DNA of 27,188 nucleotides from a virus. The stretch lies in the IMG/VR virus record IMGVR_UViG_3300034103_000628, positions 1-27,188 of that record; one strand, 5' to 3'. Positions within the stretch are counted from its first letter, which is position 1; each line of letters begins with the position of its first letter. Positions 2,788-23,098 of the stretch are shown here, one piece after another. Made by a program: the position numbers and the translations under genes. The notes beneath the pieces are model-generated. The model did no database searches. It was given only the letters and a program-made list of their open reading frames with translations, and was not told the origin of the DNA.

Positions 2788-5700
2788 ATGGCAGAACGCG
2801 GCGCAGCTGGAATTCATATTGTCTCCAGCGCCGACCTAAGGGCGCTAGATAGGCTTCAGCAAAAGCTTGTAGCAGTTACTAAAGCCGCTCGGTCGAGCGC
2901 TGGCGCACCAGGAGCCGCTGCGTCTGCAGCAACAAATTCACAAACCCGATCCCAGCAGAAGCTTGCTGCAGCTCAGGATCAGACCGCAAAGAATGCACGC
3001 GGCGCTTATCGCGACAATCAGCGTGCAATTGACCAGTCACGACGGCAGGCGTACGCGCTCTCCGTTGCTGGATTCCAGGCTCAGGCTCTTGGACGTGCCG
3101 CAATGGACACGGCAAAGCGATGGGTAGACTCCTTTGCAAAGATTGACTACCAGGCACGTCGTGCTGCAGCAGCATTCGACATGCCAGCCAAGGGCATCGA
3201 CCAGACGAGGCAGTCGGTTGACATGCTCATCGCATCCTCCAATGATCTTGCGCGCTCGTTCGGTATGTTCGACGCGCTAACGATCACCGAGGGTCTATAC
3301 TTCTACGCCTCGACGACAGGCGCTACGATCAAGAGCCAAGAAGAGCTGAACGCCGTAATGGAGAAGTTCACGCCGATCCTGAAGGCTGCTGGTATCACGT
3401 CCACTGGACTTGAAACCGCAATCAAGGGCGTGAACGGTATCATCAATGAGTTCGGCATGTCGATGGAAGAAATTCCATTGGTAATGGCAAAGCTCTACTC
3501 TGTCACTCAGAAGTCTGCGGCGGAGTTGACGGACTACTTTGAATCGTTCAAGATGGTCGGTCCTATCGCCAAGCAGATGGAAGCGTCCTTCGACGACGTT
3601 CTCATTCTGCTCTCCGAGTTCTCGGACGTTCAGATCAAGGGCGGTATGGCAGGGCGAGCGCTCCGCCAGACACTCGCCAAGATGGTTGCTCCAGCAGGTG
3701 TAGCACGCAAGGCGCTCGACAACCTCTTCGCCTCCACCAACGGTGTTGGCATGACCTTCGACAAGGTTATGAGGAAGGGTGGCTCATTCGTCACCTTCCG
3801 AGAGTATATTGATAATTTGACCCTTGCCTTGTCAAAGGTCTCTGACGCGCAGCGCGAAGAGATCTTGGCAATCATGACCACGCAGAACGAGTTTGCGCCT
3901 TTGGTGGAAACCGTCAACGCTGGCATCGCTTCATACAAGGAATACGGCAAGAGCCTATTCGAGACAAGCAAGTACACCGAAGTTCTCGCCAACGCAACCA
4001 AGGACTTCGAGGGCGACCTCGAGACGATTGGTCGTTCGGCACAAGCCTCGAGCACCCGCATCACTGCGTCCTTCGAGGCGATTAGGATTGCTATGGGTAA
4101 TGCCATGGCTCCTGCTCTCGCTGATGCTGCAGACATTATGGAGAAGTTCTCGCGCAAGTTTGAGAATCTGTTGAACAATAACAAGCAGATTGCTGGCTTC
4201 GTAGGCGGACTCATGATGTTCGGCGGCGCGCTTCTGAGCATCGTTGGTTCACTTCTGATCTTCTCTGGTACGATCGCGCTTCTATCGGTCGGATACCGAG
4301 AATCAAAGTACATGCTTGATGAGTTTACTAAGGCTGCAGCGAAGCAAGGCAGCACTATTGGCGGGCTTCAGCGATCTTTCGCTACGATGCTTGAGACCAA
4401 TAAGTGGAGCGTATTCTTTAAAACACTCACAAGTGGATTTAAGCGTCTCCTTCAACCAATTGACAATGTTACAGTTTCACTGCTTAGGCTGATTGGTCTC
4501 AAGGTTCCAGAAGGAACTGGTCTAAAGACTGGCAGCATGCTCAAGCAGGGAATCCTTCGGGCTGAGCAATCACGCCCAGTTCAGGCTGTTTATAACAGAA
4601 TCGCTCCGTTCACTACGAATCCTGGCGGATACATTGCTAACCAAGTTGGCAGAGTAACCGACAGGATGCGTCCAGCGTTTGATAGGGTTCGGGCAATCCG
4701 ACCTATGGACAGGCTGCAGGGGGCAATCGAGCGAGCACGAGCAGTACAGCCATCAATCGTTCAGCGTGGAATCGATGTCGTAGAGAAGCGCCGCCCAGTG
4801 CAGAGTTTCTACGGCGGCATCTCAGCACGCGGTACGATGACACCGACTCAGGCAATCCCTAAGGCGGTAATGGCACAGGCGAACGTTGCATGGGAAGCGT
4901 ACATCCGCAAGGGTGGCGACCTCATGATTCGCACGCTTGAGGCTGGCGAAAAACTTATTACTAAGACGATCCCAAGCATCGGACCAATCCTAAACAACGC
5001 ATGGGAAGCGTACATCCGCATCGGCGGGGACCTGATGATTCGGGGACTCGAGCGCGGAGAGCAGATCCTACTATCGACCAGTGCGTCGATTAACGCAGCT
5101 GCAAATGCTGCGAAGGCAAGGATTCTTAAGGTCGGTCCAGCACTCGACAAGTTTATTCTTAACTTCTATGACGCTACGTTCGGTAGCCTTCAGAAGTTTA
5201 ACTTCGCAGCAACACTCGACTCTATCCGCGCTGCTCTGCAGAACGGTCTTGATCGAGCACGGTCTGCGGTCCAGTACTTTAAGAGCGGCGGCGCAAGGCG
5301 AACCATCGTCAGCGCGTTTGACTCAATGCAGGCTGGAATCAAGAACTTCGCCGCAGCAGCAAAGAGGCAGGTTGCATTCGTCGCAGAGGCGATCAAGCCT
5401 GTACTATCTGGCGCTGCTGGCGCAGTGAAGTCCGCTGGTGGCGCAGTTGTCACAGGCGGAAAGGCAGCCGCTAGCGCAGCTGGCGGTGGCTTGGCAGCAG
5501 CAGGGAAGACCGTTCTCACGGGAATCTTTGCAGCTGGTAAAAAGCTTGAGCCGCTGTTCAAGAGGGTAATGGGATTCATTACCAAGATTGCATCTGGCGG
5601 CGTTAGGCTAGTTAAGGCTATTGTTAGCCCAATCGCAGTTATTTTTGAAGTAGTCATCGGATTCCTCATTGGTCTCTTCAAGGGATTCACTGGTGGAATG

Positions 5701-7938
5701 AAGGATGGCGCAAAAGAGTCAGCAGACGGATTTAACATCCTCGGTGCTGCAATCGAGATCATCGGCGCAATTATCAAGCCAGTTATCGTGGCTTTCGAGA
5801 TTATCCGAAAGCTCTTTGAGACTCTCGGTATCTTGACAGCCAAGCTAGTACAAGCCCTAATGGACTTGCCAATCGTTGGCAATGTTATTAAGGGTGTTGG
5901 CGACTTCGTTAGCGGAGTTGGCGATGCATTTGGGTGGGTCGGCGAACAAGTCGACAGCGCACTTGGGAGTTGGGACAATTTCAATACCGAGATTGCAAAC
6001 AATATCCCTCAACTAACGGAAGAATTTGGCAAGAATGCTGCAGCAATTGCAAACATGCAGGCTGCGCTTGAAGGTCAATCTTACCTACCTCAATCAGAGA
6101 GGGAGCGACTCCAAACGGAGCTCGATCTCCTCAAGAAGCGGAACTCTGAGATCCAGGCGTTTATCGACCTGATCAAGCAGAAGCAAGCACTAGAAAGCGG
6201 AAACGTTTCTACCGTCCTTCGTGGACCAGGTGGACGTTCAGTTAGCGGCACTAGGCTCGCAGAAGCTTTCGCTGCTGCTAAAGCGGCTAAAGATGAGTCT
6301 GGTGCTTATCTTGACTCTCAAGAAGAAGCAAAGACCGAGCTTGAAAAGGCTCTCGAGGTCGCACGACAGGGCGCAGATCTCAAGAAGGCAATCGCAGAAG
6401 TCGGGAACACGAACCTCCAGGCAATCGTCAAGCGTTCGCTTGGTGGCATTGCTAAAGGTGTTCGTCTCGCCGTCAAGATTGTCGCTGAGATCTCATCTGA
6501 TCTAAGTGTTACACTGCAGCAGCAGGCTGCCGACTTTGCTGGTCATGCCGAAAAGGTAGTGTCAGCGATCGGCGCAGCCGCGACTGCATTCAAGGGACTG
6601 GGTTCAGTCCCAGTTCCTGGAACGGGAAAGATTAAGGCAATCGTCAATGCGATGAACAAGATCGTTACGATCTTCGCATCCGCATCGAAGAGCCTATCCG
6701 CTCAGGCGGTAGCAAATGCGTCTGTTCTTGCTGAGCCAGCCTCGCAGATTGTCTCCGCAGTTGGAAGCGTCGTTGACGCTTTCAAGAGCCTGACCGAGAA
6801 GGTCACGTTCCAACCAAAAGCATATATCAAGGAATTCATTGCCAACATCAGGACGACTGTGAAGTTGTTCATGAGTGGAATGAAGGACATCAAGTTGTCT
6901 GTCGCCAAGAAGCGCGGTCAGCTTGCAGAGGCTGTGGACCAGATTGTCGGTTCGATTAGCACGGCAGTCGACTTGTTCCAGAGTCTCAAAGACGGCGTAT
7001 ACCAGCCTCCGAAGGCGCTCATCCGACAGATCATGGACTCCATGGTCATGGCGGCGAAGGTCTTCGTTGTTCAGTCCAAGAAGTTCGCATCACTTGCCAA
7101 GATGGAAAAGGCTGCGAAGTTCGCTGAGCCAGTAGAGGCAATCCTAGGAGCACTCGGGTCTGCTGCATCAGCCTTCAAGGACATGAAGGACTTCGTAGCG
7201 CCGATGCCTGAAGTAATCGACGAGATTGTTAAGGCAATCGAGATGACGACTCGCAAGATCGTCGAACTCGACCGCAGGCTAGGATATACAGCACTTACCC
7301 TCGAGGGAGTCAAACTCTTCTCCGAGACGGCGAGCGCGGTGGCAAACGCAATCAGTTCAACGTACGATGCCTTTGTTAAGACAATCGACTTCGTGAATCA
7401 GTTCAGGGAAGAGATTGACTACAACAAGGTGTTCGGATGGATTGAAATCGGACTGACAAGGATGAATGCCTTGTCCGCACGATTCAGCGCTCCTCAGATG
7501 GAGCAGATCAGGGCAGCAGCAGATGCTGCCCAGGCTGTGGCTGGAGCAATCCAGTCGTTCTTTGACATCGCTGGTGCGATGCTGGAGGACCCAACGAGGC
7601 TAGGCACATCTATCGAGTACGCAGTAAACGCAGTAATCGACGGGATCAACCAGTTCAACGAAGGAGTCAGCACGTCTGGCGCAAACTTCGTAGACCAGTT
7701 GATTCTCGGAATGCAGTCCCGCGAGTCTGCACTTGAAGCTCAGGTCGGTCGACTTACCCAGATCATGGGCACTGTTGGATCGTCTGTCACTGTTGGTTCT
7801 AACCAGAAGATGGAGATCACCCATGTGATCAAGGACCCAGGTGGCGCTCTGAAGAACGCAAGTGCAACAGAGGTCGCGGCTCTCCTCAGCGGAGATGCTT
7901 TTATCTCAAACTTGCAGCACAGCATTAAGACCCAGTAG
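2788..7938 (+). CDS. Tape measure protein
   Basis: This 1716-residue protein sets tail length and is the largest gene in the window. TGAGG lies 7 nt before the ATG. Residues 1-130 are Ala/Gln/Arg-rich helix. Residues about 130-430 resemble the TP901-type tape measure core, with a DDVLILLSEFSD...GGMAGRALRQTLAKM-like segment. A long hydrophobic stretch lies near 465-505, and two more near 925-975 and 985-1040, as expected for a protein that enters the host membrane. A 37-residue repeat occurs at about 701 and 738 (AWEAYIR, GGDLMIR). From about 1250 to 1640 there are six degenerate copies of a roughly 66-residue helical repeat anchored at residues 1255, 1316, 1381, 1447, 1513 and 1579. At about 0.15 nm per residue in helix, tail length would be roughly 250 nm (inference). 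Confidence 0.92.
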   Translation: MAERGAAGIHIVSSADLRALDRLQQKLVAVTKAARSSAGAPGAAASAATNSQTRSQQKLAAAQDQTAKNARGAYRDNQRAIDQSRRQAYALSVAGFQAQALGRAAMDTAKRWVDSFAKIDYQARRAAAAFDMPAKGIDQTRQSVDMLIASSNDLARSFGMFDALTITEGLYFYASTTGATIKSQEELNAVMEKFTPILKAAGITSTGLETAIKGVNGIINEFGMSMEEIPLVMAKLYSVTQKSAAELTDYFESFKMVGPIAKQMEASFDDVLILLSEFSDVQIKGGMAGRALRQTLAKMVAPAGVARKALDNLFASTNGVGMTFDKVMRKGGSFVTFREYIDNLTLALSKVSDAQREEILAIMTTQNEFAPLVETVNAGIASYKEYGKSLFETSKYTEVLANATKDFEGDLETIGRSAQASSTRITASFEAIRIAMGNAMAPALADAADIMEKFSRKFENLLNNNKQIAGFVGGLMMFGGALLSIVGSLLIFSGTIALLSVGYRESKYMLDEFTKAAAKQGSTIGGLQRSFATMLETNKWSVFFKTLTSGFKRLLQPIDNVTVSLLRLIGLKVPEGTGLKTGSMLKQGILRAEQSRPVQAVYNRIAPFTTNPGGYIANQVGRVTDRMRPAFDRVRAIRPMDRLQGAIERARAVQPSIVQRGIDVVEKRRPVQSFYGGISARGTMTPTQAIPKAVMAQANVAWEAYIRKGGDLMIRTLEAGEKLITKTIPSIGPILNNAWEAYIRIGGDLMIRGLERGEQILLSTSASINAAANAAKARILKVGPALDKFILNFYDATFGSLQKFNFAATLDSIRAALQNGLDRARSAVQYFKSGGARRTIVSAFDSMQAGIKNFAAAAKRQVAFVAEAIKPVLSGAAGAVKSAGGAVVTGGKAAASAAGGGLAAAGKTVLTGIFAAGKKLEPLFKRVMGFITKIASGGVRLVKAIVSPIAVIFEVVIGFLIGLFKGFTGGMKDGAKESADGFNILGAAIEIIGAIIKPVIVAFEIIRKLFETLGILTAKLVQALMDLPIVGNVIKGVGDFVSGVGDAFGWVGEQVDSALGSWDNFNTEIANNIPQLTEEFGKNAAAIANMQAALEGQSYLPQSERERLQTELDLLKKRNSEIQAFIDLIKQKQALESGNVSTVLRGPGGRSVSGTRLAEAFAAAKAAKDESGAYLDSQEEAKTELEKALEVARQGADLKKAIAEVGNTNLQAIVKRSLGGIAKGVRLAVKIVAEISSDLSVTLQQQAADFAGHAEKVVSAIGAAATAFKGLGSVPVPGTGKIKAIVNAMNKIVTIFASASKSLSAQAVANASVLAEPASQIVSAVGSVVDAFKSLTEKVTFQPKAYIKEFIANIRTTVKLFMSGMKDIKLSVAKKRGQLAEAVDQIVGSISTAVDLFQSLKDGVYQPPKALIRQIMDSMVMAAKVFVVQSKKFASLAKMEKAAKFAEPVEAILGALGSAASAFKDMKDFVAPMPEVIDEIVKAIEMTTRKIVELDRRLGYTALTLEGVKLFSETASAVANAISSTYDAFVKTIDFVNQFREEIDYNKVFGWIEIGLTRMNALSARFSAPQMEQIRAAADAAQAVAGAIQSFFDIAGAMLEDPTRLGTSIEYAVNAVIDGINQFNEGVSTSGANFVDQLILGMQSRESALEAQVGRLTQIMGTVGSSVTVGSNQKMEITHVIKDPGGALKNASATEVAALLSGDAFISNLQHSIKTQ
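4888..5050 (+). repeat. Tandem 111-bp repeat unit inside the tape measure gene
   Basis: A 22-bp stretch at 4888-4909 recurs exactly at 4999-5020, and flanking sequence remains similar. The encoded units share AWEAYIR, GGDLMIR and Glu-Gly-Glu patterns 37 residues apart. The offset is in frame. It is probably a recent internal duplication in the tape measure. Confidence 0.7.
6541..7710 (+). repeat. Six degenerate ~66-residue repeats in the tape measure C-terminal part
   Basis: Each unit has a helix with an Ala-Glu/Asp anchor, then small residues and an Asp-Ala-Phe-like end (for example AVDLFQSL, ASAFKDM, TYDAF), a Pro-containing turn, and a second helix beginning Ile-x-x-Ile-(hydrophobic). The anchor acidic residues are spaced 61, 65, 66, 66 and 66 residues apart. 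At the DNA level the copies have diverged. A spacing of 66 equals six 11-residue helical periods. Confidence 0.7.
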
Positions 7939-7994: not shown

Positions 7995-10973
7995 ATGGCA
8001 ACTACGACAGTTAACACGACCAAAGACGCGAGCGCAATCGGCAACGTCGACAACTCCGCTGTTACGTTCGACTGGAACGGGAAAGACCCGCATCATCCAG
8101 TCGGAGTACTTAACGGTGCTGTCTACAAAGGGCGAAGCATAATCTATTTCCCGATCTCATTCACTGGGATTAATAAGATTACGTCGGCGGTAATGACAAT
8201 TCGTGCAACTTCATATCACAACGCCTTTGGTAGCAACAGCAGCAAGACGCTTAAGGTCGCTCGTCACCTCAGAAGCTGGACTGAAAACAGCGGAGATGGC
8301 GGAGAGAACGACTGGAGCAACTCATCCGCTACCTACGAAGCGTGGAGCGGCGTGAATAGCGCTGGTGTTGACTACGCCACCTATGCGGGCGGCACTGACC
8401 AGTACGGTGTGGAGATTACCACCACCAATGGACTGGACTCTAACGAGGTCTCCAAGAGTGTTGGCGTTCTCTCTGACGGCGACACGATCACGGTAAACAT
8501 TACTGGTATTGTTCGCTCGTGGCAGAGTGGATCTGCGAATAACGGAGTTCTCCTTTACAACAACAACGAAACTGCTGAGACTCACTATATGGAGTTCGGC
8601 AGCCGTGAGCTTAGCGGCTATACTCCGTCGCTGACCATCACATACGATACCAACACTGGTCCAAGTGCAACCACGATCAATAGTCCTACTGGCGGAGCAC
8701 GTCAGGACGGCAGGGTCGTCTTCAACATGACGATGGTTGATGCTGACACGACGGACTATGTAACAGAGTATGAGATCCAGGTATCTCCAACGAGTGCCTT
8801 TACGACAATTGCATACTCGAATACAAGCACTATCAGCACCACGAGCAAGACAATCACCGTTAGCGTGAACGGTACGCTTGGTCTTAACACCCTGACTCTC
8901 TACTACTGGAGGGCGAGGCTAAAGGACAGCGGAGGCGTATGGAGCCCATACAGCGCTGGGACAGACACGTTCCAGATTAACTCTGCTCCAAGCACACCGA
9001 CTGGGCTTAGCCCAACTGGTGGAACTGTAGTGAGCACACAAACTCCAAGCTTCTCTGGCACATCATCTGACTCTGACGCTGGCGACTACACCAAGTACGT
9101 CAAGGTCACGATCTACAACTCATCGACGAATGCAGTCGTATGGGATAGCGGCGATGTCCTGCTGACTGCTAACGGCGCGTTTGCCGTGACATCTGGAGTT
9201 TCTCTGGCGCTTGGTACTTCTTACTACTGGAGAGCCTCGACGAAGGATACCTTCGGTCTGACCTCATCCACGTCTTCGAGCGCATCGTTCTCAACGTTTG
9301 CTGGTGGCGCAAGCCTCACTACGCCGAACGATGATACGGGAACTGGATGGGTGAAGACTCTGACCCCAGTACTGACGTTTACAACGCCAGCATCAATTAC
9401 AAACTATACGATTAAGATTTATGACACCAGCGGCGCTCCGTACCGAACCATCGGTCCGACATCAGCCACTGGAACAACGGTCAGCTATACCTATGCTGGA
9501 ACGCCAGCCCTGAACTGGAACAACCGATACTTCTGGACGGCACAATACACTGCCTCTGGAGTAGCATCGGCTGAGTCATCTCAGGCAATGTTCCATGTAA
9601 ACTCCTCGCCAGTCGCGGTGCAAATCTCACCGACAGACGGGCAAGCAGTTGGCACAGTTGATCCTTCCTTTGAGCTTCAGTTCTCTGACGCAGATCTCTC
9701 TGCTGGGCTAGCAGACTCTCCAACAAAGTTGGAAGTCGAGGTTACCCGAGTGACAGACGGCGAAAAGATGTATGATCTTGCCAAGACGACAGGTCTTACG
9801 ACAGGAACAAACACAATGAATAAGGCGAACTCAACAGTGACCGCTGGTCCTGGTGGGGCTACGCTAACAAAAGAGATTCTCTACCGATACCGAGCGCGCT
9901 ACACGGATAACTCTGGGACAGCGCTATCTAATCTCGGGGCTTACAGCTCCTATAGGACATTCAAGCCAACGGACGGACCAGTGAATACCGTCGTTGTTGT
10001 TAATTCAACAGACCTAACAAGCGGCGCGATCAACAAGCCAAACCCGACGGTACAGTACACTTACACTGGATTCAACTCTAAGGCTCAGATTCAGAGCCGA
10101 GTGATTATCCGAAACAGTTCTACAAACGCTGTGATTTATGACAGTGGATTCCTTGTGAACGCGGCAGCAAGCGCGACAACGGCAACGATGTCGATCCCTG
10201 CTGGGTATCTTGTGAACACGACGAGTGTGATCTTTGATATCATCTCGCGAGACTCTGACTCCGTTGACTCAGCAATCGCAAGCAGCCCTACCTACACTAC
10301 CGCCTGGACGGTTCCAGGCGGAGTAGACGGCGTGTCTGCAACAGTGGAAAACGGCTCTGTGGTCATTCGATGGGACGAGTCTACAAACGCACTCTTTGCA
10401 AAGTACCGAGTGTACCGACGAGAATACGGACTGACTGGAGCTTGGTCGACACTAGGAGATGTCTCTGTCAAGGAAACAAATTTCTACACGGACTACACGT
10501 CCGCTGTAAACAAGTCGTACGAGTATCGAGTGACACAGTTCGTTGACTACGGAGCATCTACCCTTGTGGAGTCGAGCTTTGACGAGGCGATTACTTCGGT
10601 GTCCAACCCGTCAGGAGACAACTGGTTCATTGTTCCGCAGGGTCGTTCTGACCTTGCAATTGAGCTTTACGCTCAGGGCGAGGATCGACAGGCTCCGTTC
10701 CAAGAAGAAATCTTTGAGCCATTTGGCAGGGAGCGCAAGGTCGTTGTGCGAACCGCACGCTATGGAACTGAGGGTTCATTTGAAGCCTTCATCCCAAGCG
10801 ATGAGGTCGCAGATAAAATGTCAAAGATCAATGAGATCATTGACCTTATGACTCCAGTGTACCTGAAGGACCCGTTCGGAGCGGTCCTTAACGTGTACAT
10901 CGGAGCACCATCACTTTCCTATCAGCCGACTGGTCATCTAGTAGCAAACATTAGTTATATCGAGGTAAGATAA
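7995..10973 (+). CDS. Distal/minor tail protein with DNRLRE-like N-terminus and repeated fibronectin-like domains
   Basis: This 992-residue protein probably forms part of the tail tip. GAGAGG precedes the ATG by 4 nt. Residues 1-220 resemble the DNRLRE/CBM-like beta-domain (an early Asp-Ala, a central V-x-RHLRSWTE, a late VNITGIVRSW and GVLLYN). Five beta-sandwich units follow, starting near residues 222, 331, 438, 536 and 660, with recurring YYWRA/RYRARY strands and SPTGG-type turns. A clear fibronectin III-like unit lies at about 774-870 (VIRWDES, YRVYRRE, YEYRVTQF). Residues 873-992 form a separate C-terminal domain with PVYLKDPFG, a pattern common at the ends of actinophage minor tail proteins. 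The modular beta-domains could contact host surface glycans. It is 1 nt from the next gene. Confidence 0.75.
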   Translation: MATTTVNTTKDASAIGNVDNSAVTFDWNGKDPHHPVGVLNGAVYKGRSIIYFPISFTGINKITSAVMTIRATSYHNAFGSNSSKTLKVARHLRSWTENSGDGGENDWSNSSATYEAWSGVNSAGVDYATYAGGTDQYGVEITTTNGLDSNEVSKSVGVLSDGDTITVNITGIVRSWQSGSANNGVLLYNNNETAETHYMEFGSRELSGYTPSLTITYDTNTGPSATTINSPTGGARQDGRVVFNMTMVDADTTDYVTEYEIQVSPTSAFTTIAYSNTSTISTTSKTITVSVNGTLGLNTLTLYYWRARLKDSGGVWSPYSAGTDTFQINSAPSTPTGLSPTGGTVVSTQTPSFSGTSSDSDAGDYTKYVKVTIYNSSTNAVVWDSGDVLLTANGAFAVTSGVSLALGTSYYWRASTKDTFGLTSSTSSSASFSTFAGGASLTTPNDDTGTGWVKTLTPVLTFTTPASITNYTIKIYDTSGAPYRTIGPTSATGTTVSYTYAGTPALNWNNRYFWTAQYTASGVASAESSQAMFHVNSSPVAVQISPTDGQAVGTVDPSFELQFSDADLSAGLADSPTKLEVEVTRVTDGEKMYDLAKTTGLTTGTNTMNKANSTVTAGPGGATLTKEILYRYRARYTDNSGTALSNLGAYSSYRTFKPTDGPVNTVVVVNSTDLTSGAINKPNPTVQYTYTGFNSKAQIQSRVIIRNSSTNAVIYDSGFLVNAAASATTATMSIPAGYLVNTTSVIFDIISRDSDSVDSAIASSPTYTTAWTVPGGVDGVSATVENGSVVIRWDESTNALFAKYRVYRREYGLTGAWSTLGDVSVKETNFYTDYTSAVNKSYEYRVTQFVDYGASTLVESSFDEAITSVSNPSGDNWFIVPQGRSDLAIELYAQGEDRQAPFQEEIFEPFGRERKVVVRTARYGTEGSFEAFIPSDEVADKMSKINEIIDLMTPVYLKDPFGAVLNVYIGAPSLSYQPTGHLVANISYIEVR

Positions 10974-10974
10974 T

Positions 10975-12180
10975 ATGTGGACTCCAACAGATGTGAGCCT
11001 TAACGAATATAAGGATGCGCTTCTCGCTGGAGTTCGTGAGGTCAAGATTCGGGTAACCGCTCTTGACGCGAACCTGAATAAGATTAGCGACGACGCTGAC
11101 ATTACCGACGACACCGTTGAAGGTACTGTTTACGTTGACGCTGACCGAGCGACGCGCAGGACGTGCCAACTCAGGATCATTGATACTAATGGCAAGTACA
11201 CGCCGCGCGGAGCATCGTACGAATCTTACGGGACGAACTCCTTCTTTTACTGGGACAAGACATTCAAGGTTGAATACGGTCTCAGGATTGGTGGTCAGTA
11301 CTACTACGTTACGCTTGGCATCTTTATGGTTGACCGAGTGGAAGTAGTGGCTGAGCGCGGAGCGGCGGTTATCAACATCGACGGCAGCGACCTATGGAAG
11401 AAGATTACCTTCTCCGAGTGGACTGCCTCCGAAACAATCGCACATACAGAGACGATTAACTACACGATTAACAAGATCCTTATCGATGCCTACCCAACAG
11501 CGAAGATCATTCTTGACCCACTTACGTCGAGAGCATCAAACCTGCTTGGCATCCCGTTCTACGCCTCGCTCGGCGACAACCGTGGCGAGCGCCTCCTCTC
11601 CCTTCTGGAAGAGTGGTCCATAGACATCTTCGTGGACAGGAACGGAAACTTTGTCACGAGAGACAAAACGCAAGCGCCCTACACGGGCGGCACGAGCGCA
11701 CCAGACTTCGAGTTTACCGCTGGTGAGAACGCGGTCATGCTCGGTGTCGTCAAGTCACAAAGCGGCGATACGATCAAGAACCACATCCTTGTCTACAACG
11801 ATAAGCCCAGCACTTCCGCGAGGTTCGCTGAAGCATTCGATGGCAATGGCACTTCAACCTCATCTAAGTACTATACCAATAGCGGAAGCCCGACATCTAT
11901 CGAGAACCTCGGTGATCGAGTCATGATTGTCAAGGCACAAACGCTCGCAAGCACCGAGGCTTGCTTGGCAAGGGCTAAAGACGAGCTTGCAAAGAACATC
12001 TTCATCGAAGAAGAGATTAGGTTGCCAGCAATTGTCAACCCCCTGTTTGATGCTTATGATACAATCTCAATCGTTGAGACAAACAGCATGATTCAGGATA
12101 GCTATCAACTAAAAGCATTTGATGTGCCGATGCAAGGCAGCAGACAAGAAATGGTTGTTAAGAAGACGAGGGCATTGTAA
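10975..12180 (+). CDS. Baseplate hub-like minor tail protein (DUF5047-like / tail-associated)
   Basis: This 401-residue protein starts at ATG one base after the preceding stop, with GAGG 9 nt upstream. Residues 20-125 match the pattern of DUF5047-type tail proteins: strands with VRE-VKIRV, then ATRRTCQLRIID near residues 59-70, then a YGL-x(5)-YYVTLGIFMVDRVE strand pair near 101-124. The middle part (about 190-300) has GERLLSLLEEW and DRNGNFVTRD segments typical of gp27-like hub folds. Such proteins form the ring between the tail tube and fibres. The stop overlaps the next start (TAATG), so translation is coupled. No peptidase or lysozyme domain is visible, unlike many tail-associated lysin proteins. 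Confidence 0.65.
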   Translation: MWTPTDVSLNEYKDALLAGVREVKIRVTALDANLNKISDDADITDDTVEGTVYVDADRATRRTCQLRIIDTNGKYTPRGASYESYGTNSFFYWDKTFKVEYGLRIGGQYYYVTLGIFMVDRVEVVAERGAAVINIDGSDLWKKITFSEWTASETIAHTETINYTINKILIDAYPTAKIILDPLTSRASNLLGIPFYASLGDNRGERLLSLLEEWSIDIFVDRNGNFVTRDKTQAPYTGGTSAPDFEFTAGENAVMLGVVKSQSGDTIKNHILVYNDKPSTSARFAEAFDGNGTSTSSKYYTNSGSPTSIENLGDRVMIVKAQTLASTEACLARAKDELAKNIFIEEEIRLPAIVNPLFDAYDTISIVETNSMIQDSYQLKAFDVPMQGSRQEMVVKKTRAL

Positions 12181-13247
12181 TGGCGAGCATTGGAGATAAG
12201 TCTTTTACGACGCAGATGGTAAGTGCCATCGAGACCGTCGTAGGTCAGAGCATCGGCAACGACGCTGGGACCAATCGCTTCACGGCTGAAGTTACGGCAG
12301 TTGATTCAGTGAACTCGACCGTATCTGTCTTGCTTCCTGGAGCTTCTGCTGCGGCTTCTGGGTTTACCGTTAACGGAATCCAGATGCCAGTTATCGGCGA
12401 TTATGTGATCGTCTACATCAACGAAAGCGAACGCTGGGTAGATAACGTATATAGAACTGCAACGAGCAGCCCATATCTATCAGTTACTAGCGGTTCGTTA
12501 AATGCTTACGGTGCAAACAACTTTGGCGCTCCAACTGGAGCAGTCATGGGCTGGCTCACAGCAACGGCTCCTACGGGCTGGCTTTTCTGTGATGGCACTT
12601 CATACGCATATAACACCTACCCAGCCTTAGGAGCGCTCCTAGGCGGGTCTGCGGGGGGAAATTTCACCACCCCAGACATGAGGGACAGGTTTCTTGGGTC
12701 TCTAGGGACTGTTGGGGCTTGGTCAAATACCAGTGGTACTATTGGACCAAACTCGACAATTACCAACGATCGGGCGCACACGCACTCAACTTCTCATGAT
12801 CATACATTTAGCGGATCATTTAGCGGTTCAGGTCATACACATGGTGCAACTGGGTTAAACCCTACGGCAACAACAATTGGATTATTGTCAAGCACTCAAG
12901 CTGGTTTACATAGCCACACTGCTCCAATCGTTACTGAATCTAGCGGTTCGCCGTCTTCAGTGGTTAACAGGGTTACTACAACAAGTACAAGTGCTACTGC
13001 ATCTTCAACACATACGCATAGTTTTTCCGCTGGCGCATGGACAACAACAACTGCAACTTCTCATGACCATGATGTAACAGTTCCTTCTCACGATCATGGA
13101 ATTAACGGCGATACAGCTAGCGCGACTGCTGGCGGTACAGTTTCTGGAACAGTAGGAACTGATACAACGGCAACTGGTGCAGCAACCTATGGAGGTTCTG
13201 CAATTTCGCCAAAAGCCACAAGGCTAAACTTTATTATTAAAACCTAA
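12180..13247 (+). CDS. Tail-collar fibre protein with OB-like N-terminus and His-x-His-rich tip
   Basis: This 355-residue protein begins with a region (about 30-95) patterned like a gpV/gp5 OB-fold, with EVTAVDSVNSTVSVLLPG and a GDYVIVYIN strand. A phage tail collar domain follows at about 117-175 (GAVMGWL, APTGWLFCDG, TPDMRDRFLGS). The C-terminal part is Thr/Ser/Gly-rich and contains seven His-x-His motifs at residues 200-202, 206-208, 219-221, 244-246, 278-280, 295-297 and 304-306. In T4 long and short fibres, similar motifs coordinate iron along a trimeric needle. The final LNFIIKT is the usual ending of collar fibres. It probably forms a trimeric receptor-contacting or central spike element. 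Confidence 0.8.
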   Translation: MASIGDKSFTTQMVSAIETVVGQSIGNDAGTNRFTAEVTAVDSVNSTVSVLLPGASAAASGFTVNGIQMPVIGDYVIVYINESERWVDNVYRTATSSPYLSVTSGSLNAYGANNFGAPTGAVMGWLTATAPTGWLFCDGTSYAYNTYPALGALLGGSAGGNFTTPDMRDRFLGSLGTVGAWSNTSGTIGPNSTITNDRAHTHSTSHDHTFSGSFSGSGHTHGATGLNPTATTIGLLSSTQAGLHSHTAPIVTESSGSPSSVVNRVTTTSTSATASSTHTHSFSAGAWTTTTATSHDHDVTVPSHDHGINGDTASATAGGTVSGTVGTDTTATGAATYGGSAISPKATRLNFIIKT

Positions 13248-21886: not shown

Positions 21887-21907
21887 ACATACCCTGAGGA
21901 GGTGCGT

Positions 21908-23098
21908 ATGAACCGACTCAGAGTTACTATAGTAACCACGATTATCTTTACCGCCGCGTTTACTGCGGCACTATTCTCCGCCACCCCAGTCAAGGGACTG
22001 GAAGATGCGGATAACTGGGATCAGCAGGTTGATGCCAATGGCACGATCACGCTGACCGATGGGACGATTCTTATTGAAGGCAGCAACTACCCAAGTGGTG
22101 TTGGATTGCCAGATCAACTGTGGCAGAACACTGTCACTGGAATCACGACTGATTCTTCGCAAGGAGAGACGGTCACATTCGGGTGGTCATACTGGACAAC
22201 CGATAACGCATACTTTGACCGACCACAGATGCTTCTCGATGGAGCATGGTCAGACCTCGCTAATGGCGTGCAGTCTGCTGGCGGTACGGTCCAGGTCTAT
22301 GTTACGGCAAGTGGCGCTTTCGGATTTAGAGTCCTCTCATTGGACTCATGCTGTGGCGCTGGCTACCTACAGATCTCGGATACCTCTTGGGTAATCGGGT
22401 CTCCCGTAGAGCCTAGCCCAAGCCCAGAGCCAACCCCAGAACCAACCCCAGAACCAACCCCGACTCCTGAGCCGACACCAGAGCCAACGCCTGAGCCGAC
22501 ACCGACTCCTGAGCCTACGCCTGAGCCCACGCCAGAGCCAACACTGCCACCTACTCCTGAGCCCACGCCAGAGCCAGAACCAGAGCCGACTGTAGAGCCG
22601 ACTCCTGAGCCTGAGCCTGAGCCAGAGCCAACGGCAGAACCAAGCGAGGAGCCGTCAATTGAACCAGAACCAGAGCCAGAGCCGTCTACCGAACCCGAAC
22701 CGTCGCCCGAAGAAACAGAGGAGCCTGAAGAGTCTCCTGTGGTATCTCCTGATCCCACTGATGTACCTGATCCTGAATCCGAATCCTATTTGCCAGATCT
22801 AGGCGACGTAGGAGAAGCGGTTGAGGCTGTGGCAGAGGCTATCGGAGAAACATTCGGAGAGGCTTTAGAAGCGGTGGTAAATCTTGGCGCTGACCTTTCC
22901 GAAGAGGAGAGAGAAGAAGTCCAAGCACCAATTGTATCAGCGATTATCGTAACGCAAGTCGCTCAAGCGGCTGTCTCGATGGCTATTGCTGCACGACCAA
23001 CACCTCCAAGCGCACCAACCCCAACGCCTTCAGGCGGTGGCGGAGCGCCTGTCGGTGATGCAAAAAGTAGTGGATCAACGAAGAGGAGCCGTGAATGA
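21908..23098 (+). CDS. Secreted Pro/Glu/Thr-linker protein with C-terminal hydrophobic segment
   Basis: I choose ATG 21908: GAGGAGG (21896-21902) lies 5 nt upstream, and the GTG at 21902 is inside that site. The 396-residue product opens with a signal peptide (MNRLRVT, then a hydrophobic run to about residue 30). Residues 31-166 form a beta-domain with [19 protein letters not shown] and [21 protein letters not shown], like modules in secreted bacterial surface proteins. Residues 167-292 are a Pro-Glu-Thr repeat linker. Then come acidic amphipathic helices ([21 protein letters not shown]), a hydrophobic segment near residues 344-365, a Pro/Gly hinge and a basic end (TKRSRE). It could span or crosslink the cell wall from a membrane anchor. 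The ATGA overlap couples it to the next gene. Function unknown. Confidence 0.7.
22409..22786 (+). repeat. Pro-Glu-Thr coding repeat array
   Basis: Tandem, degenerate hexa- to nonanucleotide units (variants of gag-cca-acg-cct) encode [16 protein letters not shown] and PSTEPEP runs. The units vary mainly at third codon positions, so the peptide pattern is conserved more than the DNA. Such an array could expand or shrink by recombination in steps that keep the frame. Confidence 0.85.

Follow-up and report, generated by a model that had tools for sequence, protein, structure and literature searches.

Short aromatic repeats in tape measure proteins, 11 or 18 residues long and marked by W or F, are known (PMC5099701, PMC3271669). 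In phage TP901-1, 0.145 nm of tail corresponds to one residue, and the published range is 0.145-0.15 nm (PMC5099701). Belcaid et al. (PMC3271669) described regularly spaced W/F anchors that are used by small auxiliary proteins. A longer unit of 40 residues, described as divisible into 11 or 11-11-18 residues, is reported for lactococcal phage p2 (PMC5099701). In lambda, the C-terminus of gpH is trimeric and is located in the tail tip (PMC10721106). Here I describe a C-terminal repeat array in the tape measure protein encoded by a stretch of 27,188 nucleotides (IMG/VR virus record IMGVR_UViG_3300034103_000628, positions 1 to 27,188; hereafter the window), which is a genome fragment from an uncultured tailed phage. 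The tape measure protein gene (2788..7938, plus strand, as are its parts given below) encodes 1716 amino acid residues. The best reading of the last ~480 residues is an old C-terminal module of tandem 64-66-residue units, five or six in number, with a tail of ~90 residues after them.

The array resembles the 11- and 18-residue repeats of TP901-1 and of the Belcaid et al. (2011) set in that it is a tandem repeat of a tape measure protein gained or lost by whole units, and some F pairs in the window lie 18 residues apart (F1250/F1268, F1445/F1463 and F1511/F1529). In contrast to those repeats, its unit is 64-66 residues long, heptad-like and C-terminal, and the array is nearly constant in length. 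It shares a longer unit with phage p2, but no division like that described for p2 was found in it.

Repeat units at the end of the tape measure protein

The array of the window spans residues 1236-1626 (nucleotides 6493-7665) and consists of six units spaced 64, 65, 66, 66 and 66 residues apart. Unit 1 lies at 6493..6684 (residues 1236-1299), unit 4 at 7078..7275 (residues 1431-1496) and unit 5 at 7276..7473 (residues 1497-1562). Unit 2 (6685..6879, residues 1300-1364) and unit 3 (6880..7077, residues 1365-1430) are together the site of the extra copy in the six-copy group described below. Unit 6 (7474..7665, residues 1563-1626) is diverged and has weak homology to the other units. The original prediction had placed a six-fold repeat at 6541-7710, which is the same region with shifted borders. 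Its spacings of 65, 66, 66 and 66 stand, while the first step is 64 by the model instead of the claimed 61; its anchor at residue 1255 matches the model and its other five anchors are 3 residues short of it.

The region from residue 1231 to 1660 was compared with itself by the mean BLOSUM62 self-score, against 2000 plain shuffles and 2000 shuffles that preserve the hydrophobic/polar pattern. Offset 66 had the top self-score (mean -0.093). This score was reached by none of the 2000 pattern-preserving shuffles, either at 66 or at any offset of at least 20, and by one of the 2000 plain shuffles at some offset of at least 20. Thus, the predicted long C-terminal repeat is present, and its significance exceeds that expected from general helical composition. 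When copies were compared in pairs with 500 pattern-preserving shuffles, five of the six pairs among copies 1-4 were at 0/500, and the pair 1-3 was at 9/500. For copy 5, there are ties to copies 2 and 4 (0/500 each), a weaker one to copy 3 (14/500) and none to copy 1 (94/500). Copy 6 is tied to copy 5 alone (0/500), with 43 to 439 of 500 shuffles for the other copies. Profiles of one slot over eight sequences were also tried on the other slots, with 1700 pattern-preserving shuffles each and a 1% threshold. Slots 1-4 recognise each other above this threshold in nearly every case; an exception is the slot-4 profile, which misses the extra unit (0/2). The model built from copies 1-5 scores copy 6 at 3.7 bits, and the 40 bits that copy 6 attains after iteration of the model are partly circular. 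Because of these pairwise tests, the copies 1-5 model and the cross-slot profiles, copies 1-5 can be taken on sequence grounds as certain repeats and copy 6 as a probable one, so the predicted six-fold repeat is clear for five copies and weak for the last. By eye, helices at residues 1184-1203 and 1208-1234 suggested a seventh half-unit before unit 1, but it had no profile match.

The units share F at column 15 in 32 of 46 aligned units, A/I/V/G positions at columns 19-27, A-F at columns 32-33 (the F at column 33 in 40/46) and P at column 44 in 30/46, and the units are Ala/Gly-rich. Two AlphaFold2 models were obtained. The first, with a mean pLDDT (predicted local distance difference test) of 40.7, has a long and a shorter helix in each of units 1-6. 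The second (mean pLDDT 37.6) has them in units 4-6, and its last helix runs on. At this low confidence, the models suggest that a unit starts with a long helix and ends with a shorter one, the two being joined by a turn that often contains proline. The two-helix pattern claimed for each unit is thus visible as helix pairs in both models, at low scores.

The claim that 66 residues equal six 11-residue periods did not survive. In all eight arrays tested, the local hydrophobic periodicity is 3.45-3.58, closer to 3.5 than to 3.67. Autocorrelation is higher at 7 than at 11 in all eight, narrowly so in L015 (0.13 vs 0.11), and is near zero at 22 and 33. Self-offsets 22, 33 and 44 are low, except for L015 at 33 (-0.29), while offset 11, a weak feature, is within the eight best offsets in four of the six arrays listed. 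No 11- or 18-residue ladder was found in the array. Therefore, the periodicity of the array is heptad-like, and the division of 66 into six elevens is arithmetic, not structure.

Copy number and length among relatives

Relatives were collected from IMG/VR via tail-tube, tape-core and C-terminal searches, which together yielded ten different tape measures that are complete at their ends. I found six units in the window, L004 and L064, and five units in L009, L010, L035, L015, L016, L037 and L076. Thus, as predicted, copy number differs between relatives, and by exactly one whole unit, as is also seen in the 11- and 18-residue repeats, with a unit of ~66 residues here. In alignment A1, the difference appears as a single block of 66-67 residues that all sequences but the window and L004 lack. 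Unit spacing in the relatives is 64, then 64-67, 66, 66 and 66. The copies 1-5 model finds four or five units in relatives with complete ends at a spacing of ~65, some at E ~1e-3 to 1e-6. The repetition, its conservation in relatives, the near-constant spacing and the exact one-unit difference are observed directly. Copy number requires one change both on the tail-tube tree (nine labelled rows) and on the tape-core tree (ten labelled rows); midpoint rooting disagrees between the two trees.

Some sequences were left out of the copy counts, namely L003, whose tape measure is cut at 632 residues, and L006 and L014, both cut within the array. In L014, four units score above 8 bits and the fifth is cut. 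L011, L012, L013, L017, L077 and L078 are near or full duplicates of other rows. L005 has five units in a 946-residue open reading frame (ORF) that lacks the N-terminal part, and it is not among the ten. Its tape frame (9816-12653) starts late and the core lies elsewhere on the same contig (L089), owing to a frame break or an assembly error. In the tape-core search, there were 77 loci. I examined 44; 19 others are on contigs already covered, and 14 were left out (L093, L095, L100, L101, L108, L113, L115, L116, L118, L119, L125, L126, L130 and L136). The array is present in four of the 44 (L064, and L076-L078 with identical coordinates and scores), that is, in two distinct sequences. It was not found in the other 40, some of which are truncated and four of which have isolated weak matches. 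Pattern-based contig scans with the tape measure and with the tail-tube alignment yielded no confirmed candidate.

Among the long parts of the tape measure protein, the array is the one that varies least in length. Array length is 324, 325, 326, 326, 326, 326 and 329 residues in the seven five-copy sequences and 391, 392 and 393 residues in the three six-copy sequences. The distance from the core to the array ranges from 411 to 812 residues in the former, a spread of 401 residues, and from 732 to 883 in the latter. The N-terminal part also varies (459-694 residues to the core mark), and the C-terminal tail (7666..7935, about 90 residues in the window) measures 76-101 residues in the ten complete relatives compared. 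Total length is 1494-1762 residues in five-copy proteins and 1682, 1716 and 1831 residues in six-copy proteins. Copy number was therefore rejected as the chief source of length differences, since the large ones lie upstream of the array. The idea that tail length is tuned by copies holds insofar as a whole-unit difference exists, but with at most one change on the trees this is not the main way. If a unit were extended in the tube, it would account for about 10 nm (9.6-9.9 nm), because the published 0.145-0.15 nm per residue (PMC5099701) gives this value. Self-similarity also occurs outside the array. In the variable middle of the window's protein (4891-5120), a 37-residue stretch starting with WEAYIR occurs twice (residues 702 and 739). 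In L009 and L035, the self-offsets that score best (53 and 99) belong to the middle region, from residue 606 onwards.

Database comparisons and gene neighbourhood

By its domain matches, the product of the ORF at 2788-7938 is a tape measure protein. The conserved PhageMin_Tail core (Pfam) was found at 3241..3870 (residues 152-361; E 1.3e-21, above cut-off), and several PHROG tape-measure families match (best 3.7e-25). With the array as query, phrog_305, a tape measure family, matches one of 11 members (E 1.1e-5). I rejected phrog_788 as a relative of the array (E 4.7e-5 in the window; matched in 8 of 11 members), since it is promiscuous and occurs in 9 of 14 control genomes. The whole protein matches 39 records of named phages, with at most 20% covered and all within residues 115-569. 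The array itself has no match among named phages up to E 1 and nothing above cut-off in Pfam, and its best match among solved structures is a designed binder at E 0.015, which is not credible. The array thus has no credible sequence match to a repeat family named in Pfam or PHROGs, or to a solved structure. In the full-text literature searched, which does not include subscription papers, no tape-measure unit of 64-66 residues was recognised.

Nine named tape measures were compared with the unit without a convincing match; the best is a Huwbert stretch at E 0.0029, and the rest are at 0.1 or above. Four of the nine (Gordonia phage Kvothe, Microbacterium phage Huwbert, Rossellomorea phage phiT1 and Parageobacillus phage vB_PtoS_NIIg3.2) have significant internal repeats too, but their best offset is 44 (4 x 11) and its multiples, unlike the window array. 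Different repeats, with offsets that include 40, 44, 87, 92 and 111, occur in further tape measures that the core search recovered. Strong ones are those of L081 (offset 87), L104, L106 and L110 (92), L086 (40) and L127 (44). Among the relatives, L006 has no significant self-offset (61/300 shuffles). For all these scans of named phages, relatives and other tape measures, the shuffle nulls were made on the best-chosen region, and the z-values are flattering. Long tape measure repeats are therefore not rare. What is particular to the window family is its unit and the constant array length.

The tail-tube gene (1044-2042; Pfam Phage_tube_2 match) lies upstream of the tape measure gene. Between them are two small overlapping ORFs (2071-2475 and 2472-2726), and an in-phase GGGAAAG at 2418-2424 is a lambda-type slippery heptamer for a -1 shift from the first ORF into the second. 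Among eight loci, the heptamer is GGGAAAG in seven and GGGAAAA in L037. The tape measure gene thus follows a tail-tube gene and a putative chaperone pair with a predicted -1 frameshift. No family match was found for the putative chaperone ORFs (2071-2472: none in PHROGs). Downstream of the tape measure gene are encoded a 992-residue protein containing an Ig-like domain, a tail-collar protein and, between them, a DUF5047-like protein whose score is below the curated cut-off. When this DUF5047-like protein was used for a scan, nothing beyond the kin contig of the window came up. The first 13,935 bases of the window are 99.9% identical to IMG/VR contig 3300042891_000930. The ORF at 21902-23098 has imperfect tandem repeats at 22418-22701 coding for a Pro/Glu/Thr-rich stretch.

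Readings of the array

I somewhat favour the reading that the C-terminal array is a module whose register matters and whose length changes in whole units only, and that tail length is determined mainly outside it. Inside the distal tail tube, the units of the tape oligomer would form heptad-like helices arranged end to end. The C-terminus of the tape would be at the tail tip, and the C-terminal tail after the array may be the tail-tip end, by likeness to lambda gpH (PMC10721106), likewise a tape measure protein with a C-terminal helical end; this analogy concerns orientation. It is proposed that tail-tip assembly or ejection depends on the register of the array, and that this keeps its length nearly fixed. 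The array would then change by whole units alone, each worth ~9.6-9.9 nm of tube if fully extended, and most tail-length evolution in the family would take place in the variable segment before the array.

Several observations weigh against this reading. The array lengths rest on model-anchored unit starts, and L015 has one 70-residue step. The lineages are few, and L009, L010 and L035 are close kin. One unit tree pairs units 2 and 3 of the six-copy group as sisters (79/73), while in the unit tree with L064, unit 3 of the window groups with slot 2 of the five-copy sequences (88/86). Of four clade tests on gain versus loss, none rejects (p 0.167-0.423). The low score of copy 6 in the copies 1-5 model corresponds to E 0.045, and slot 5 (copy 6 of the window) is found in 1, 3, 0 and 4 of eight sequences by profiles 1-4. 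The mean pLDDT of ~40 in both models is too low for turn geometry or an extended state.

More tentatively, the array may be an end piece of the tape that is quantised and bound to a register. Its length would be fixed by the fit to the tail tip or ejection machinery and would change in steps of whole two-helix units (~10 nm), with free length varying upstream. If true, one part of the tape measure would be tunable and another fixed and modular.

It is unlikely that tail assembly chaperones dock on the individual units, which would then count chaperones along the tape. The spaced W/F anchors described by Belcaid et al. (PMC3271669), the F kept at columns 33 and 15, and the two overlapping genes with a -1 slippery site before the tape gene are in its favour, but the unit is confined to the C-terminal quarter and the binding is putative only. 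The Ala/Gly-rich units would also suit a role as hairpins that, once the tape is ejected, refold to form a channel across the cell envelope. The models are too poor for a fold search, and I regard this reading as improbable too. It is quite doubtful that the array is a length ruler of 11-residue periods tuned by gain and loss of copies. The whole-unit difference, the rank of offset 11 and the known aromatic repeats (PMC5099701, PMC3271669) agree with a ruler, whereas the periodicity is not 3.67 in any of the eight arrays, offsets 22 and 44 are low and so is 33 outside L015 while four named tape measures peak at 44, and copy number does not order total length. Common helical composition alone, for which the single plain shuffle and the 11-30% identity between the window units might be cited, is very improbable and is considered refuted for units 1-5 (unit 6 being the weaker case) by the pattern-preserving shuffles, the cross-slot recognition, and the equal spacing in ten sequences with a clean whole-unit indel.

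The reading of a register-bound module with tail length set mostly elsewhere is of moderate interest to specialists, limited mainly by the lack of a cultured phage in this family. Repeats in tape measures are usually seen as ruler marks; here, the repeated part is the most length-conserved one, and the variable length lies elsewhere. If this is true, the family lets the question of which part of the tape sets tail length be tested, with five- and six-copy arrays that stand beside very different upstream lengths.
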